A stretch of DNA of 45,818 bases. Source: a virus. Below are positions 1-45,818 of the stretch, one piece after another (the first letter of the stretch is position 1; every line of letters begins with the position of its first letter). The stretch lies in IMG/VR virus record IMGVR_UViG_3300045019_000151, positions 1-45,818 of that record, one strand, 5' to 3'. A model generated the notes under the pieces. The model saw only the letters and a program-made list of their open reading frames with translations. It was not told where the DNA came from and made no database searches. A program made the position numbers and the translations under genes.

Positions 1-378
1 TCAGACTTTAAACTCTTGGCTGACATCAGGGTAAAGCAAGGTCCATTTACCCTCGATGAGCCGCATTTTGCTTCTTCTGCGTACCTGCTCCTCGTATGGG
101 TCAATCAGGTACTTGAACTCTGGAATGACAAAGTCCGGATGATGACGCTGGTACTCGACCTGGCCGGCAGTCGGCTTATCGGCTTCCCAGTCGATCATCA
201 TCAGGCGCCGCCGCTTGACGACAGCGAGATTTACAATTTCCAAGCTTGCTGGATCATGGCGCCAGTATGTCATGAGATAAGTATCTTCGGCCTCGTCCAG
301 CGGCATCTTATACGTCGCTTTCTTCCAACGCCCGTTGACCAGATACTCAATTCCATAGACCTCAACCGTCTCAGACAT
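1..378 (-). CDS. Unknown 125-aa protein beside a LexA box
   Basis: I do not recognise this family. The protein is small and charged, starting MSETVEVYGIEYLV and ending QEFKV, with a basic patch VVKRRRLMM near residues 52-61 and no signal peptide or membrane segment. A longer reading frame starts at 450, but I chose the ATG at 378 because the upstream start would place the LexA box inside the coding region. The box (396-415) lies 18 bp before this ATG, so the gene is very probably switched on by DNA damage (inference). It is divergent from the plus-strand unit at 453-1366. The stop codon is the first three bases of the window, so the gene is complete, but its downstream neighbours are not visible. 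Confidence 0.7.
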   Translation of the reverse strand: MSETVEVYGIEYLVNGRWKKATYKMPLDEAEDTYLMTYWRHDPASLEIVNLAVVKRRRLMMIDWEADKPTAGQVEYQRHHPDFVIPEFKYLIDPYEEQVRRRSKMRLIEGKWTLLYPDVSQEFKV

Positions 379-36585: not shown

Positions 36586-36942
36586 ATGAAGGCCGAGCTC
36601 ACTACAGGCGAGATCGTGACGCTCGCAAAGGAATGCGACTGCCCGCACCACAACGAACCGCACTGGGTCCACGTTGATGCGACTTGGCGCAAGCGTAACG
36701 ACGAGACGCTGCGGGCCACACCATTTGCGCGCCGGTATTTCGCGATGGGCGTGCATCACAAGGAGGAGCAGATCCGAATCGCGCGGAAGCAGTTTGAAAT
36801 GAAGCACCGCGGCATTGTGCGGTTAATCCGGGAGCCGTCGGATGAAATGACGCCGGAACAGCAGGCGAGGGTAGAGCAGGACTTCGCGCACCTGGTGCAC
36901 TCAACGAGTGCGGAAAAAATGGACATGGGAGAGAGGGCATGA
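36586..36942 (+). CDS. Unknown 118-aa protein
   Basis: MKAELTTGEIVTLAKECDCP, HHNEPHWVHVDATWRKRNDE: cysteines and histidines (C18, C20 region, H22, H23) could bind metal. The C-terminal half is charged and helical (RIREPSDEMTPEQQARVEQD). Starts 43 bp into the operon after the cargo gene with AGAGAAATCC as its site; overlaps the PAPS-reductase-like gene by 4 bp. No known family. Confidence 0.6.
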   Translation: MKAELTTGEIVTLAKECDCPHHNEPHWVHVDATWRKRNDETLRATPFARRYFAMGVHHKEEQIRIARKQFEMKHRGIVRLIREPSDEMTPEQQARVEQDFAHLVHSTSAEKMDMGERA

Positions 36943-38159
36943 ACCATCAACTCGATATTTTCGCCGCCGGCGCCCGTCGTATGCAGATGACCGAGTCGAT
37001 AGAGCTTACGGTCCAGTCACTGCAGGCATACGGGGAAAGCCACGATCACTGGGGCATTGCATGGTCGGGAGGAAAAGACAGCAGCGCGACACTAACGCTG
37101 ATTATGCACCTGCTCGACACAGGGAAGGTCAAACGGCCGAAGACGCTTACCGTTTTCTATGCCGACACTCGGCAGGAGTTGTTGCCGCTAGCCGCTGCAG
37201 CGCGCCGGATTATGGACGAACTCGAGGAGCGCGGCATTCATGTTGAGATCGTTACGGCGCCGATGGACAAGCGTTTCATGGTTTATATCCTTGGCCGCGG
37301 GGTTCCTCCGCCAAATAACAACACGCTCCGGTGGTGCACCAGGCAGATCAAGATCGATCCAATGGAACAGGCGCTGCGGGATCGCCTCGATCAGCTCGAA
37401 GGCAACATCCTGATGATCACTGGCGTCCGCCAGGGTGAGAGCGCGATCAGAGACCGTCGCATCGAAATGAGCTGCGGGAAGGATGGTGCTGAGTGTGGCC
37501 AAGGCTGGTATCAGCAGATCCTGCCAAACGCAAAAGGCCTGCGCGGCCGGCTTGCCACCCTGGCGCCGCTCCTGCACTGGCGGGTGTGCCACGTCTGGGA
37601 ATGGCTCAAGCATTGGGCGCCGGCGGCGGAATTTGGTGACTGGAGCACCGCGACGATCGCGGACGCCTACGGCGGCGACGAGGCGGAAGAGATCAACGCC
37701 CGGACCGGCTGCACCGGCTGCCCGCTGGCACAGGAAGATACCGCGCTCGATACGATCCTGCTGAATCCGCATTGGTCATACCTGCGCCCGCTGAAAGGGA
37801 TAAAGCCGCTATGGCGCGAGCTCCGTGAGCCACAGCATCGACTCCGGAAAGCCGGCTTGGAAATCCTGAAGGATGGTAGCTACGCGAAGAACCCGCAACG
37901 TATGGGACCGCTCACGTTCGATGCCCGTTTGATGGGACTCGAACGCATCCTCGGAATCCAGGCAGAAGTCAACGCTGCGGCTCGCGCCGCTGGCCGGCCA
38001 CAGGTCGACCTTATCAATGGAGAAGAGGAAGCGCGCATCCGTGAATTGATCTGCCTGGAGACGTGGCCCCAAGGCTGGGACGGCGACGAGCCGATCGCTG
38101 ACACGGTGATGGATATTGTTTATCAAAATGGCGCAGTTCAGCCGCGCTTGTTCGCATAG
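36939..38159 (+). CDS. PAPS-reductase/DndC-like ATP pyrophosphatase family protein
   Basis: 406 residues. SGGKDSS (43-49) is the ATP-PPase P-loop, RWCT (131-134) and TGVRQGES (161-168) are the following family motifs. Cysteines C133, C179, C186, C258, C261 (RTGCTGC) could hold a 4Fe-4S cluster, as in DndC. DndC acts in DNA phosphorothioation; no other dnd genes are visible in the window, so this is a stand-alone phage member of the family, whose substrate is unknown. N-terminal MNHQLDIFA contains QLDIF, close to the beta-clamp motif QL(S/D)LF. Confidence 0.8.
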   Translation: MNHQLDIFAAGARRMQMTESIELTVQSLQAYGESHDHWGIAWSGGKDSSATLTLIMHLLDTGKVKRPKTLTVFYADTRQELLPLAAAARRIMDELEERGIHVEIVTAPMDKRFMVYILGRGVPPPNNNTLRWCTRQIKIDPMEQALRDRLDQLEGNILMITGVRQGESAIRDRRIEMSCGKDGAECGQGWYQQILPNAKGLRGRLATLAPLLHWRVCHVWEWLKHWAPAAEFGDWSTATIADAYGGDEAEEINARTGCTGCPLAQEDTALDTILLNPHWSYLRPLKGIKPLWRELREPQHRLRKAGLEILKDGSYAKNPQRMGPLTFDARLMGLERILGIQAEVNAAARAAGRPQVDLINGEEEARIRELICLETWPQGWDGDEPIADTVMDIVYQNGAVQPRLFA

Positions 38160-38192: not shown

Positions 38193-38372
38193 ATGAGCAC
38201 GCAACCTAAGCTGGTCCCTATTAAACAGTGGGCGAGATCGATCTTCGGCGAGAATGCCCCGCATCAAAATACGCTGCAGCGCTGGGCAAATAATGGGAAC
38301 ATTTCACCTAGAGCGACTAAGGTCGGAAAGAATTGGTTCGTTAAACCTGACGCAGAATATAAGGTCCGCTGA
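38193..38372 (+). CDS. xis: Excisionase-like protein
   Basis: 59 residues. PIKQWARSIFGENAPHQNTL, then QRWANNGNISPRATKVGKNW and FVKPDAEYKVR is the winged-helix pattern of phage excisionases. GGAGATAAAGAGC precedes the chosen ATG 38193; longer frames from 38160 or 38178 are possible. Directly before the integrase, so expressed with it from the rightward promoter. Confidence 0.85.
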   Translation: MSTQPKLVPIKQWARSIFGENAPHQNTLQRWANNGNISPRATKVGKNWFVKPDAEYKVR

Positions 38373-39483
38373 TGAATGCACGGCGCCGTAATCCAAAGAA
38401 GAAAAACTGGCCCGAAAATCTTACTGCAAAGATGATGGGTATTTCTGGTACCGGAATCCTATCACCGGAAAAACAAAGGGTCTTGGCCGAAACAGGGCTG
38501 AAGCATTCGATGCGGCAGACGCGGCGAATGCCGTCGTTGCATCGATCCGTGCCACGCAAAAGGCAGCTAACCTGGTCGAATGGGTGAGGGGTCAAGTCGG
38601 CAAAAAGCTGAGCGAATGGACCGCAGAGTATTTTGAGATCTTCCTCAAAGAACGAAACCCTGCAAAGAATTCGATCATTCAGATGAAATCGAATATCCGT
38701 TTCATCAAAGCCTCCGCCTTCGCAGAGAAGCAGATCGATGAGATTTCCACACTCGATGTTTCCAATTTCTTAAAGGAGACCGAGAAGAATCGTGGCCCCG
38801 GAGCTGCGGCGCAAACCAGGGGAACACTTCAGGATATTTTTCGGGAAGCGGAGGTGTCCGGCTTGATAGGGGCTGGTAAGAATCCAGTCACAGTTACACG
38901 CGCAGCAAAGCAGATTGTCAAACGCGATCGCCTGTCACTTGAGCAGTTCTTGGCTATTCGCGAGCATGCTAGTACATGGCTGGTGAATGCCATGAACCTC
39001 GCCTTACTTACTGGGCAGCGAAGGGAGGATATCGCAAAGGCGATGTTCGCCGATGTCAAAGACAGCTTTCTCTACGTTCAGCAGACCAAGACGGGTGCTA
39101 AGCTGCGCTTGCAGACATCCTTGCGTTTGAACGCGGTCGGGCTCTCGCTCGACGACGTGATAAAGCAATGTCGGGACAAAGTTGTGAGCAAGTACCTCAT
39201 TCATCGCACCACCTCAACGCTTAAAGCAAGAGCCGGATCTCCAATACCGCTCTATAAAATTTCGGATGACTTCGCGGCCGCACGCGAAAAGGCAGGCGTT
39301 AAACCTCAAGAAGGTAAAACACCACCATCCTTTCATGAGATTCGATCGCTTGCAGAGCGGCTTTATGACAAGGAATGCGGGCCTGGTTTCACTCAAAAGC
39401 TCCTTGGTCACAAGAGTGCATCTATGACTGCGGTCTATCACGATTCTCGAGGTTCTGAATGGACAGATGTTGCGGCTAATTAG
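38372..39483 (+). pseudogene. int: Tyrosine integrase split by a frameshift
   Basis: The N-terminal arm-binding domain starts at ATG 38372 (MNARRRNPKKKNWPENL) and is in a different frame from the rest. If one T were added in the CTTACT run at about 38420-38423, the frame would read ENLYCKDDGYFWYRNP..., joining smoothly to the catalytic part, which is open to the TAG at 39483. That part has R146, H251-x2-R254, H276 and Y285 (counted from 38584), the full tyrosine recombinase catalytic set. The catalytic fragment may still be made from GTG 38584. Could be a real mutation, a sequencing error or a programmed shift; integration host and att-binding domain would be lost if real. Confidence 0.8.
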
Positions 39484-39551
39484 ATGAATTTTGGACGATT
39501 TTAGACGCACCTTTATAAATCAAAGACTTACACGATCCCTATATCCATGGC
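39484..39551. other. Right prophage-host junction (attR region)
   Basis: Directly after the integrase stop. The in-frame TAA at 39516-39518 is the last phage-side stop; from about 39545 the sequence reads as adhesin coding DNA (IHGRYVGLNGEIDASG). The crossover core cannot be defined without attL. No tRNA or tmRNA end is present here. Confidence 0.65.
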
Positions 39552-42500
39552 CGGTATGTTGGGCTCAACGGAGAGATCGATGCCAGCGGCGCGACAGGCG
39601 GTACGATCGCTGTGACAGCGCATAACGCAGACTTGTGGGGCAAGGTCGATGCGCAGGGCAAAAGCGGCACGGGCGGTCAGGTCAGCATCGACGCGGCAGG
39701 CAGCGTGATGCAGACGCGGGCCAGCGTAATGAGCGCGAATGGCGAAACGGATGGCGGAGGCATCACGCTTCATGCGGCGCAGTCAGGTGAAGGCAGTGTG
39801 ATTCTGTCCGGTCGCTGGATAGCCGACGGCAAAACCGGCGCGGGCGGCAAAGTGGATGTCACTGGCCGCAATATCAGCCTGCTGGCGGCGCAGGTGAAAG
39901 CCGATGGCAGTGCCGGCGGCGGACGGATCCGTATCGGTGGCGAATATCAGGGCAAACAGCAGGAACTGCCAAACGCTACGATGACGACGATAAATGCGTC
40001 AACGCTGATCTCGGCACGCGCGACAGGGCGCGGCGATGGCGGTGAGGTAGTGGTATGGAGCGACGAGAAGACGCTTTATAGCGGCAGAATCGATGCGCGC
40101 GGCGGCGAGCAGGGCGGTGACGGCGGCCGGGTGGAAGTATCCGGTAAACAGTTGGGCTTCGGGGGGAATGTCGATGCTGGCGCTGTCGATGGCCAGCCAG
40201 GTCGTTTGCTGCTGGACCCGAAAAACATTGTGGTCGATGAAAACGCGGGAAACAGCATCGGACTGTCCACGTTATCCATCCTCAACCCGAATGAAATCGC
40301 TGGCGGGAAGTTTGTAGAAAAATCTGCTATGGCAACCGTTTTAAGCAATAGCAATATCGTTGTACGAAATCCCAATGATAGTTTCGTCGCTGCGAAGGCA
40401 GGAGTGGTTTATCTGGTAGACGGCACTGACGGGGGGATAATTTCCACTTTGCGCGGGAGTAATGCATCGGACGAAGTAGGTAGCAGAGATACTCTCGTTC
40501 TCGCAAATGGCAATTATGTGATCGTAAGTTATTACGGCGGCAAAGGCGCAGTGACATGGGGTAGTTCGAGCAGCGGAATCAACGGAGTTGCGACTAGCGA
40601 AAATAGTCTGATAGGTAGCGTCAGCGCAGACCACGTAGGCACTGGCGGTGTATATCCTTTAATCACAGGGCATTATGTAGTGAGTAGCCCTACTTGGACA
40701 AACGGCACAGCGGTGAATGCTGGTGCGGTGACTTGGGGGAACGGCAACATCGGAACAACTGGCCTAGTCGGTTCGCACAACAGCCTAGTTGGCACGACAG
40801 GCGGAGACAATGTGAGCGGAGAGAGCTTCGACGAATTCAATACGTATTATCCCGGGGTCATAGCTTTGTCCAATGGGAATTATGTCGTGCGAAGCTCAAA
40901 TTGGCGAAATAATGGGATTCAATATGCCGGGGCCGTAACCTGGCGCAGTGGCACAGACAGCAACGGCGCCATCGTCGGTAGTCATAATAGCCTGGTTGGC
41001 AGCACGACGGGCGATATGGTTGGCTCAAAAGGCGTCATCGCTTTACCAATTAGCTCCAATTATGTCGTGATAAGTCCGCAATGGAACAATAACGGATTAG
41101 CTTTAGCTGGAGCAGTTACATGGGGCAGCGCCACATCCGGCGTCAGCGGAAGCATCACCAGCGACAATAGTTTAGTCGGCAGCACAGCGAATGACAGTAT
41201 CGGGGCAAAGGGCGTAACCGTCCTGACAAATGGCAATTATGTTGTGTCGAGCCCTAGTTGGCAAATTGGTAGCGACGTTGCTGTCGGCGCGGCAACCTGG
41301 GCAAATGGCGCAGTCGGTGTGCATGGCAATGTAAACAGCAGTAACAGTCTAGTTGGCAGCCATGCCTATGACAATGTAGGCTCAGTTGTGTTACCCCTTG
41401 CCTCGACCAACGGTCATTATGTTGTTCTAAGTCCTAACTGGCGAAGCGGGACAATCGCGAATGCAGGCGCAGCAACGTGGGGAAACGGGGATACCGGAAT
41501 AGCCGGGAAAATCGATGCCGGCAATAGTCTGATAGGCGACAAAGCAGACGACAAAGTGGGGTACCGTGGGACCGCGCTGAAAAACGGTAACTATGTAGTA
41601 CAAAGCCCCTGGTGGGGCTATAACGGCAAACCTTCTGTCGGCGCGGTTACCTTAGGTAATGGATCCACTGGAGCAGTCGGAGCAGTGAGCCCGAATAATA
41701 GTTTGATTGGTAGTTCGGCAGGCGACCAGGTTGGCTTCGAAATCTTCCCGCTCGCTAAAGGCAACTACGTTGTGCGGACTGCGTTTTGGAAAAACAATGG
41801 CCTGAGCAATGCTGGCGCTGTGACATGGAGCAGCGATACCGTAGGAAAAGTCGGCGAAGTCAGTAGCGTTAACAGCTTGATTGGTAGTTCAGTTGACGAC
41901 TTTGTCGGTATGTCTAGAATCAGCGGCAATATCGCTCCCGGTGTCGTCGCGTTGGCGAACGGGAATTATGTCGTCGTCAGTTCGAATTGGGATAATGGCG
42001 CTGTAACAGATGCGGGCGCCGTGACGTGGGGTAGTGGAACTGCGGGCATTGCGGGGATCATCCATGCAGGGAATAGCCTTGTGGGCAGCACGAGTGGGGA
42101 TAAAGTCGGGTTTGGTGGAGTCACCGCTTTGGCAAACGGCAATTATGTCGTGAACAGCTATCTTTGGAATGATGGCAACGTGGCATCCGTAGGCGCTGTT
42201 ACTTGGGGGCCCGGTTCGGCAGGAATAGTGGGAGTCATCAGCAGCAGCAATAGCTTGGTAGGTAGCCATGCAGGCGATAAGGTCGGAAATTTATTCTCGA
42301 TTTCTTCCACTACCACGCCTGGCGTTTTCGTATCGGCCACTGGGGATTACCTGGTAAGAACCCATGACTGGGATAATGGTCTTTCGGCAGATGTGGGCGC
42401 GGTGACCTGGGGTAGTGGGACAGCCGGCATGAAAGGCGTTGTCAGCACCAGCAATAGTCTGGTGGGCAGTTCTGCCGGCGACCAGCTTGGTTCTGGAGGA

Positions 42501-45500
42501 ATGCTGGCTCTACCTAACGGTAAATTCGCAATATTCAGCCCGAGCTGGGATAATCCATCTACGGCTGCAGTGGATGTAGGCAAGATCGATATCGCAACAC
42601 CGATCCCTTCATCACCGCCCGGAAATATCAGTGAAGCAATGTATGCCAATGGTGCAGCCACCGATCTCAGTTTGACAACTGCTGCACTTACCAATGTGCT
42701 TAATACCGGTACAGCTCTCACGCTGCAAGCCAATAACGATATCACCATCAACAGCGCCATCGCGGCCAGCAATCCCGGCGGGAACGGCGGCGCGCTGACA
42801 TTGCAGGCCGGGCGCAGCATCCTCGTCAACGCTTCCATCAATACCGGAAACGGCGATCTGCATCTCATCGCGAACGACAAGCTTGCGCATGGCGTCGTCG
42901 ATGCGCATCGCGATGCCGGTGCGGCTGTCATTACCATGGCAAACGGTACGCAGCTTAATGCCGGCAGCGGCAATGTGCTTGTCGAACTGCGTGATGGCGC
43001 GGGCAAGACAAACACTGACAGCGGCAATATCGGTCTGCGGCAAGTCAGTGGGAATACCATCTCGGTATTGAACCAGGGACCGACGCCCGGATCGGGCGTA
43101 GTGCTCGATGGCGTATTGAGCGCCAGCGCAGGCACGGGCACGGCCATTGATATCGCCGGCAAGACCTTCGTCAATCATGCAGGTTCAACCGCTCTGCAAA
43201 CAAGCGGCGGACGTTACCTGGTGTGGTCGGCCGATCCGGCGAACGATGACCGTGGCGGAGTGACAGGCGCATTCAAGCAGTACAACGCTGCCTACGGCGC
43301 TACGCCACTTGGCACGGGGAGCGGCTTTCTCTATACACTGGCGCCGGTCGTAACGGCCAGCCTTACCGGCACGGCCAGCAAGCAATACGACGGCGCAACG
43401 GCCATCAGCCTCGCTGGCAGAAATTTTGCTGTGGCGGGCACAGTCGATGGCGATACCGTCGAACTGAGCAGCAGCGGCGCCACGCTTGATAGCAAGCAGG
43501 TCGGCTCCGGCAAAACGGTCAGCGCACCGGGCCTGCAGATTGCCAGCGAGACAAATGGTGGCACGACATCCGTCTACGGTTATACGTTGAACACGACAAG
43601 CGCCAGCGGCAATATCGGCGAAGTCACACCGGCGATGGTGACAGCCACCGTCAATGCCGGCGACAAGGTGTATGACGGCAAGGCAGCGGTCACCTTAAGC
43701 TATGGCGGTTTGTCGAATGTGGTCGCTGGCGAGACTGTCACAGCTGGCGGTGCGGCCGGCAGCTTCAGCGACAAGCACGCTGGCACTGGCAAGACGGTGA
43801 ACTACAGCGGTCTCACACTGAGCGGGGCGGATGCGGGTAATTATCAGCTGGCATCGACGTCGGGCACGACGACCGCCAGTATCAGCAAGGCCAGCGTCAG
43901 CGTCAGCGGCATCACGGCCGACAGCAAAACATATGACGGCACGGCGATCGCCACACTGGCCGGCGGTAGCCTTACCGGTGTCATTGGCGCAGATGCCGTC
44001 ACGCTGATGACCGGTGCTGGCAGTTTTGACAGCAAGCATGCCGGTATGGGTAAAACCGTGACGTACAATAATCTGAGTCTGAGTGGCGCAGATGCCGGGA
44101 ATTATGCATTGGCTTCGACAAGCGGCACGGCGACTGCCGATATCAGCAAGAAGCAGGTCACGGCGATGAACATTGCTGCCAGCAGCAAGCCCTATGACGG
44201 CACGACGGCGGCCATCCTGACGGCGGACCTGAGCGGCGCGATTGCCAACGACGCGGTGACGCTCGCCAGTGGCGCCGCCAGTTTCAACGACAAGCAGGTC
44301 GGCACGGGAAAGACAGTAACTTATGGTGGGCTGAGCTTGTCCGGCGCGGATGCAGCGAATTACGAGCTCGCGTCTGCATCAGGCACGACTACTGCTGACA
44401 TTACCAAGGCAGTGCTTACCCCAGTTGTCGGCGGGGTCGATAAAACCTATGACGGCACAAATGCAGCCAGCCTGACCTATGGCAGCCTTGCCGTGTACAG
44501 TGGCGATGTCGTGACAGTCGATGGCGGCAGCGGTGCATTCAGCGACAAGCACGCTGGCACCGGCAAGACCGTGAACTACAGCGGTCTGATGTTGAGCGGT
44601 GCGGATGCGGGTAACTATCAGCTTGCATCGACGTCGGGCACGACGACTGCCAGCATCAGCAAGGCCAGCGTCAGCGTTAGCACCATCACGGCCAACAGCA
44701 AGACTTATGACGGCACAACCGCTGCAACCTCGACGGGCGGCAGTCTCACGGGCGCCATCAACGGCGATGCAGTCACCCTCGTACCCGGCTCTGGCGCGTT
44801 CGACAGCAAGCATGCCGGCACCGGCAAGACCGTAACCTTCAACAGTTTGAGTTTGTCCGGCGCAGACGCCGGAAATTATGCGCTGGTATCTTCCGTGGGC
44901 ACGGCCAGTGCTGACATCGCCCGTCTCAATGTGACAGCCAGCGGTGTTACAGCCAGCAGTAAGACGTATGACGGTACCACGGGCGCCAGCGTGACAGGCA
45001 CCATCAGTGGCGCTATTGCGGGCGACGCAGTCTCGCTGACGAGCGGCACGGCCAGCTTTAGCGACAAGAACGTCGGTAGCGGAAAGACAGTGACGTACAG
45101 CGGGCTCAGTTTGTCCGGTGCGGATGCGGCCAATTACAATCTCGCTTCTGCGTCGGGTACGACGACGGCCGACATTACGAAGGCGGCGCTCACGCCGACT
45201 GTCAATGCGAATGACAAGGTCTATGATGCCACGACTGCCGCCACGCTCACTTATGGCAGCCTTGCGGTGTTTGGCAGCGATGCCGTCACGGTCGGAGGTG
45301 GCACGGGCACGTTTAGCGACAAGCAAGCCGGCACGAACAAGACCGTGACCTACAGCGGCTTGAATCTGAGTGGCACAGACGCTGGCAACTATCAGCTGGC
45401 ATCGACGTCAGGTATGACGACCGCCAGCATCGGCAAGGCCAACATCAGCGTGAGCAGCATGACGGCCAACAGCAAGGTCTATGACGGCACGACGGTTGCA

Positions 45501-45818
45501 ACATCAACCGGTGGCAATCTCGCCGGCATCATCAGCGGCGATACCGTGACGCTCGTACCAGGCGCAGGCAGCTTTGACAGCAAGCATGCGGGAAGCGGCA
45601 AGACAGTCACTTTCAACAATCTGACGCTGTCCGGCGCCGATGCCGGCAACTATGCGCTGACTTCCCAGACCGGCACAGCAACTGCCGACATTACCCGACT
45701 CGGCGTGACCGTCAGCGGCATCACGGCCAAGAACAAGGTGTATGACGGTACGGCAAGCGCCAGCATCAGTGGCGAGGTCAATGGCGTGCTGACTGGCGAT
45801 ACCGTAACGCTGGCGACC
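39519..45818 (+). CDS. Filamentous haemagglutinin-type adhesin, 3' part, interrupted by the prophage
   Basis: One continuous open frame from the junction to the window end (about 2100 residues), with no stop seen. Residues after the junction read IHGRYVGLNGEIDASGATGG, the middle of a haemagglutinin/TPS-type beta-helix (GGKVDVTGRNISLLAAQVKA and VVVWSDEKTLYSGRIDARGG are typical). Then come about 12 repeats of the DUF5649 type (40494-42581), then a spacer with the recurrent GRYLVWSADPANDDRGGV element (about 43205), then YDG/MBG-type repeats from about 43348 to the end. The N-terminal secretion domain is missing; it should lie left of the prophage. First in-frame ATG is 39708. Exported by two-partner secretion in related proteins; adhesin role is inferred. 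Confidence 0.85.
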   Translation, partial: MKDLHDPYIHGRYVGLNGEIDASGATGGTIAVTAHNADLWGKVDAQGKSGTGGQVSIDAAGSVMQTRASVMSANGETDGGGITLHAAQSGEGSVILSGRWIADGKTGAGGKVDVTGRNISLLAAQVKADGSAGGGRIRIGGEYQGKQQELPNATMTTINASTLISARATGRGDGGEVVVWSDEKTLYSGRIDARGGEQGGDGGRVEVSGKQLGFGGNVDAGAVDGQPGRLLLDPKNIVVDENAGNSIGLSTLSILNPNEIAGGKFVEKSAMATVLSNSNIVVRNPNDSFVAAKAGVVYLVDGTDGGIISTLRGSNASDEVGSRDTLVLANGNYVIVSYYGGKGAVTWGSSSSGINGVATSENSLIGSVSADHVGTGGVYPLITGHYVVSSPTWTNGTAVNAGAVTWGNGNIGTTGLVGSHNSLVGTTGGDNVSGESFDEFNTYYPGVIALSNGNYVVRSSNWRNNGIQYAGAVTWRSGTDSNGAIVGSHNSLVGSTTGDMVGSKGVIALPISSNYVVISPQWNNNGLALAGAVTWGSATSGVSGSITSDNSLVGSTANDSIGAKGVTVLTNGNYVVSSPSWQIGSDVAVGAATWANGAVGVHGNVNSSNSLVGSHAYDNVGSVVLPLASTNGHYVVLSPNWRSGTIANAGAATWGNGDTGIAGKIDAGNSLIGDKADDKVGYRGTALKNGNYVVQSPWWGYNGKPSVGAVTLGNGSTGAVGAVSPNNSLIGSSAGDQVGFEIFPLAKGNYVVRTAFWKNNGLSNAGAVTWSSDTVGKVGEVSSVNSLIGSSVDDFVGMSRISGNIAPGVVALANGNYVVVSSNWDNGAVTDAGAVTWGSGTAGIAGIIHAGNSLVGSTSGDKVGFGGVTALANGNYVVNSYLWNDGNVASVGAVTWGPGSAGIVGVISSSNSLVGSHAGDKVGNLFSISSTTTPGVFVSATGDYLVRTHDWDNGLSADVGAVTWGSGTAGMKGVVSTSNSLVGSSAGDQLGSGGMLALPNGKFAIFSPSWDNPSTAAVDVGKIDIATPIPSSPPGNISEAMYANGAATDLSLTTAALTNVLNTGTALTLQANNDITINSAIAASNPGGNGGALTLQAGRSILVNASINTGNGDLHLIANDKLAHGVVDAHRDAGAAVITMANGTQLNAGSGNVLVELRDGAGKTNTDSGNIGLRQVSGNTISVLNQGPTPGSGVVLDGVLSASAGTGTAIDIAGKTFVNHAGSTALQTSGGRYLVWSADPANDDRGGVTGAFKQYNAAYGATPLGTGSGFLYTLAPVVTASLTGTASKQYDGATAISLAGRNFAVAGTVDGDTVELSSSGATLDSKQVGSGKTVSAPGLQIASETNGGTTSVYGYTLNTTSASGNIGEVTPAMVTATVNAGDKVYDGKAAVTLSYGGLSNVVAGETVTAGGAAGSFSDKHAGTGKTVNYSGLTLSGADAGNYQLASTSGTTTASISKASVSVSGITADSKTYDGTAIATLAGGSLTGVIGADAVTLMTGAGSFDSKHAGMGKTVTYNNLSLSGADAGNYALASTSGTATADISKKQVTAMNIAASSKPYDGTTAAILTADLSGAIANDAVTLASGAASFNDKQVGTGKTVTYGGLSLSGADAANYELASASGTTTADITKAVLTPVVGGVDKTYDGTNAASLTYGSLAVYSGDVVTVDGGSGAFSDKHAGTGKTVNYSGLMLSGADAGNYQLASTSGTTTASISKASVSVSTITANSKTYDGTTAATSTGGSLTGAINGDAVTLVPGSGAFDSKHAGTGKTVTFNSLSLSGADAGNYALVSSVGTASADIARLNVTASGVTASSKTYDGTTGASVTGTISGAIAGDAVSLTSGTASFSDKNVGSGKTVTYSGLSLSGADAANYNLASASGTTTADITKAALTPTVNANDKVYDATTAATLTYGSLAVFGSDAVTVGGGTGTFSDKQAGTNKTVTYSGLNLSGTDAGNYQLASTSGMTTASIGKANISVSSMTANSKVYDGTTVATSTGGNLAGIISGDTVTLVPGAGSFDSKHAGSGKTVTFNNLTLSGADAGNYALTSQTGTATADITRLGVTVSGITAKNKVYDGTASASISGEVNGVLTGDTVTLAT
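40494..42581 (+). repeat. Eleven full and one partial DUF5649-type repeats
   Basis: Each unit is about 60 residues, with the pattern LANGNYVV-S--W, GAVTWG-G and NSLVGS--GD-VG. Copies vary by inserts (for example after units 2, 8, 10). They match the repeat of unknown function DUF5649 seen in filamentous haemagglutinin-like proteins. Confidence 0.75.
43348..45818 (+). repeat. YDG/MBG-type domain array (nine full, one partial)
   Basis: Modules contain K-x-YDGT and SGADAGNYxL. TAT (or TAC) of YDG is at 43386, 43671, 43932, 44193, 44448, 44706, 44967, 45222, 45480, 45741. From 43671 the array is built of three-module units (A, B, C) repeated with 774-777 bp periods. It continues beyond the window. 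Confidence 0.9.

Follow-up and report, generated by a model that had tools for sequence, protein, structure and literature searches.

The window analyzed here is an entire virus record of 45,818 bases. It holds a siphovirus-type prophage followed on its right by the 3' part of a gene for a giant adhesin, with a lambda-type integrase gene, its attachment-site elements and a predicted core at the border between the two (Table 1). The right end of the window falls inside the open adhesin frame, and the left end coincides exactly with the stop codon of a gene on the minus strand. To judge from these ends, the left side of the record appears to have been cut back to the border of a gene, as happens in provirus records, which would place attL outside. 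The 5' half of the adhesin gene is not visible because the record is trimmed in this way. No second copy of the junction sequence and no tRNA were found within the window, and the statement of the first-pass annotation that no tRNA lies at the junction holds.

Table 1. Features of the prophage, its right attachment site and the adjoining adhesin gene.
Feature	Position	Strand	Basis or remark
Prophage, siphovirus-type	1..39537		Matches to terminase, tail, endolysin, repressor and RecT; minus-strand structural genes
Excisionase (Xis), directly before int	38193..38372	+	Pfam Exc PF07825, E=5e-6
Lambda-type tyrosine recombinase (Int)	38372..39483	+	Phage_integrase PF00589, E=1.5e-18
Two tandem arm-type Int sites, TTTTGGACG and TTTTAGACG (P' arm)	39489..39507	+	Repeat and position after int
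IHF consensus WATCAANNNNTTR (AATCAAAGACTTA), H' site	39518..39530	+	Perfect consensus match
Predicted attachment core/crossover zone, CCTATATCCATGGCCGGT	39538..39555	+	Analogy with attP/attR of relatives
3' part of giant TPS-secreted (FHA/EtpA/HMW1-like) adhesin gene	39540..45818	+	Without start and TPS domain; runs off window end

The integrase is approximately 40–44% identical to the integrases of LESphi3 and lambda relatives and 54% identical to that of L100, and the excisionase is 49% identical to the one adjoining the integrase in L017. All catalytic residues of a heterobivalent tyrosine recombinase (R, K, H-x-x-R, H and Y) are conserved (alignment A1), so the catalytic part is intact. 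When intact relatives were used as tblastn queries, the integrase matched as two pieces in two frames, which places a one-base frameshift near 38420–38425, at about codon 18, and bears out the integrase defect that had been proposed earlier. The N-terminal arm-binding domain is present out of frame, and the remaining frame of 299 residues lacks it. Judged by the sequence, in which the other main phage genes look intact, this would be a new mutation or else an error of sequencing. A genuine frameshift would make excision dependent on another integrase, whereas with a sequencing error the phage may be active.

The integrase reading frame stops at 39483 and is followed within a few bases by the two arm-type sites. 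The pattern TTTT[GA]GACG occurs only in these two copies in the whole window on both strands, and relatives carry tandem repeats of a similar kind behind int. An IHF consensus was present in 9 of the 58 distinct int-downstream flanks, compared with 0.19 expected from shuffles. In the Pseudomonas relatives, the IHF site sits at the same place relative to the core, and the order of int, arm-type repeats and IHF consensus recurs in relatives.

To locate the core we compared the attP of LPPA33 (L096) with the prophage junctions of L155 and L138, which lie in the same ArsC-like gene. The attP and the two attR sequences share TACGGCATCAA[AG]GCCTG, with minor variation, and then diverge; this shared core comes a short way after the TTAC in the IHF site. 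By analogy, the core of our prophage is predicted at about 39538–39555, and homology to adhesins begins at 39540–39555, which is the predicted core position. The first residues of the open frame (IKDLHDP), like the TAA that precedes them, thus most likely represent phage attachment-site DNA, with the host part starting near 39538–39555. A crossover at ATAAATC (39515–39521) was considered and rejected. It would put an in-frame TAA inside attB, and the attP/attR pairs show an overlap between these bases and the IHF site. As read from its sequence, the junction is laid out like an int-proximal lambda attachment site, with arm sites, an IHF site and the expected core position.

The last stop in the adhesin frame is a TAA at 39516–39518, and from 39519 onward no stop interrupts the frame before the window ends, a run of 6,300 bases (2,100 codons). 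The chance of such a run in base-shuffled DNA of that composition is approximately 1.6e-36. This agrees with the earlier description of more than 6 kb without a stop, and no decay is visible. The event had also been called recent; the absence of stops was confirmed, whereas recency itself is read from that absence. The fragment contains 11 stretches matching DUF5650 (E=1.5e-203) and 10 matching YDG (E=1.9e-161). Its first 236 adhesin residues match the two-partner-secretion adhesin EtpA by sequence (2e-22). We undertook AlphaFold modeling of the adhesin part from three sequences, and the model (mean pLDDT 86, pTM 0.87) had EtpA and the HMW1 secretion domain as its best solved relatives. It matched no viral protein in a viral fold library at E below 0.001. 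The fragment thus has the beta-helical body of a TpsA protein, like that of EtpA, HMW1 and FHA.

The TPS domain (PF05860) and a signal peptide are absent to the right of the junction. This is as expected for a split gene, and the part in the window is a fragment of a TpsA-type gene rather than a complete one. Two relatives illustrate what is missing. In L004, encoded on a plasmid of Comamonas antarctica, the TPS domain spans residues 76–299 and the matching part starts at about residue 342, while in the contig L002 the domain spans residues 20–264 and the matching part starts at about residue 290. Homologues therefore carry approximately 290–340 additional N-terminal residues, including the TPS export domain, that the window fragment lacks, and the claim that the frame enters mid-protein is correct. 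A transporter gene of the ShlB/FhaC type (TpsB) lies just upstream of the adhesin relative in L004. Rescue of the fragment by an internal start was rejected: the in-frame start codons from 39612 on fall within coding sequence rich in glycine, and a hydrophobic signal for export was not seen.

Integrase, arm-type repeats, IHF site and the onset of adhesin homology at the core together support the proposal of a prophage–host junction inside a giant adhesin gene, and very probably a lambda-type prophage has integrated inside a host tpsA-type gene. The temperate phage would have entered by site-specific recombination at an attB-like sequence within the coding region, some 300–350 codons from the gene start. 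The right junction, with P' arm, IHF site and core, would leave the 3' 6+ kb in frame but deprived of start, signal peptide and TPS domain, and the 5' piece encoding the TPS domain would be expected further left than the record reaches. The body of 6+ kb should not be exportable because these three elements are missing, and the lysogen would be without full-length adhesin for as long as the phage stays. The phage would not rebuild the gene either, because an in-frame TAA stands where a new start would be. The first-pass annotation had held that the insertion switches off adhesion. The lack of the export region right of the phage agrees with that, and we infer the loss of adhesion from it. A scan of genome contigs with the first 243 adhesin residues returned only two distant relatives (36–43%) and no empty site. 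Scans of viral contigs with the adhesin, the integrase, the left-end protein and the exact att sequence did not confirm a left flank or an empty site. Searches of viral contigs with an adhesin profile (A2) and a TPS-domain profile (A4), which depend on short conserved patterns, confirmed no other adhesin junction, and this is a weak negative.

Promoterless silent 3' cassettes occur in tps loci. The phage might accordingly have landed inside an adhesin fragment that had been silent beforehand, or at its edge, in which case the insertion broke nothing, and the 5' half of the gene is indeed not visible in the record. We consider this unlikely. The 2,100 stop-free codons suggest a recently intact gene, and the relatives in L002 and L004 each have a TPS domain at the start.

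An assembly chimera would explain the join between phage and adhesin differently, and the source is a virus record. However, the join falls at the predicted core, behind the arm and IHF sites, where a random join is not expected, and this makes a chimera very improbable. We give equally little credence to active lysogeny, in which regulated excision of the phage would turn the adhesin on. Such phage regulatory switches are known, among them phiSa3 in hlb and skin in sigK (PMC6597384, PMC5025042), and an xis gene is present here. Those elements are like ours in that a prophage interrupts a host gene and removes its product; they switch by excision, whereas the integrase here appears broken, being read as frameshifted and thus without the arm-binding domain, and no relative shows the same adhesin site. 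Restoration of the gene by precise excision, as had been suggested, is therefore unsupported. It is just as doubtful that the adhesin gene is the regular attachment site of this integrase, with the prophage as an on/off switch of host adhesion and with possible secretion of the left fragment, as a short protein bearing the TPS domain, while the phage is in place. That the adhesin belongs to the phage as a giant moron is scarcely credible even though it lies in a virus record, since it has no start, is found beyond the attachment core on the host side, resembles nothing in the viral contigs or the viral fold library, and is not carried whole by a related free phage. Integration inside the adhesin gene is far likelier than a chimera or an adhesin carried by the phage.

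Integration into coding sequence had been called unusual for such integrases. Prophages with related integrases refute this: some lie in an ArsC-like gene and others interrupt hybrid sensor kinases. In L129, L135 and L136 the prophage ends within a receiver domain, at profile position 47–49 of 111, with an Hpt domain after it, and L133 enters a hybrid sensor kinase before a HisKA-HATPase-receiver-Hpt arrangement. Three prophages at the same receiver-domain position point to a recurrent target in a regulatory gene. In the Pseudomonas-type prophages L120, L138, L155 and L163, the junction lies behind int at the start of the ArsC-like gene, and the phage side carries an ATG and first codons in frame with that gene. 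On this sequence arrangement, the phage appears to rebuild the 5' end of the ArsC-like gene and could control its expression. This integrase clade, with its Pseudomonas and environmental members, thus repeatedly uses coding sequence, and host-gene loss or rebuilding may for this reason be a usual part of its lysogeny.

The insertion is a new instance of a well-known kind of event, a prophage inside a gene, with a new target gene. Lambdoid prophages lie inside wrbA, yehV and sbcB of E. coli O157 (PMC8309913), where lambda-type integration likewise interrupts a coding region; here the target differs, being a giant TPS adhesin, and only the right half of the gene is seen. The Pseudomonas prophages (LESphi3 and LPPA33, together with L120, L138, L155 and L163) are similar in their integrases (42–49% identical) and in the layout of int, arm repeats, IHF site and core. 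Their core lies near the start of the ArsC-like gene, and in several of them the phage gives an in-frame start, whereas here there is an in-frame TAA. The fragment shares with EtpA, HMW1 and FHA the beta-helix sequence and fold found behind the TPS domain; it differs in the DUF5650 and YDG repeats that come after and in missing the N-terminal TPS domain on this side of the phage. A literature search of partial coverage turned up no description of a prophage within a TPS adhesin gene. The insertion adds a giant, export-dependent adhesin to the genes interrupted by lambda-type prophages, and a single event of this kind could deprive a lysogen of a surface adhesin.

Two further genes were seen in the prophage. 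A palindrome resembling a LexA box (CTGTATATTTGCACAG, 398–413) lies just upstream of the leftmost gene (4–378, minus strand), whose product had no relatives among the phage records and viral contigs searched; from this arrangement, it is probably an SOS-controlled accessory gene at the end away from int. A PAPS-reductase/DndC-like gene (phrog_12882) at 36939–38159 adjoins xis-int. It has 317 relatives among viral contigs, with identities of up to 87%, and the phages carrying them mostly have different integrases.
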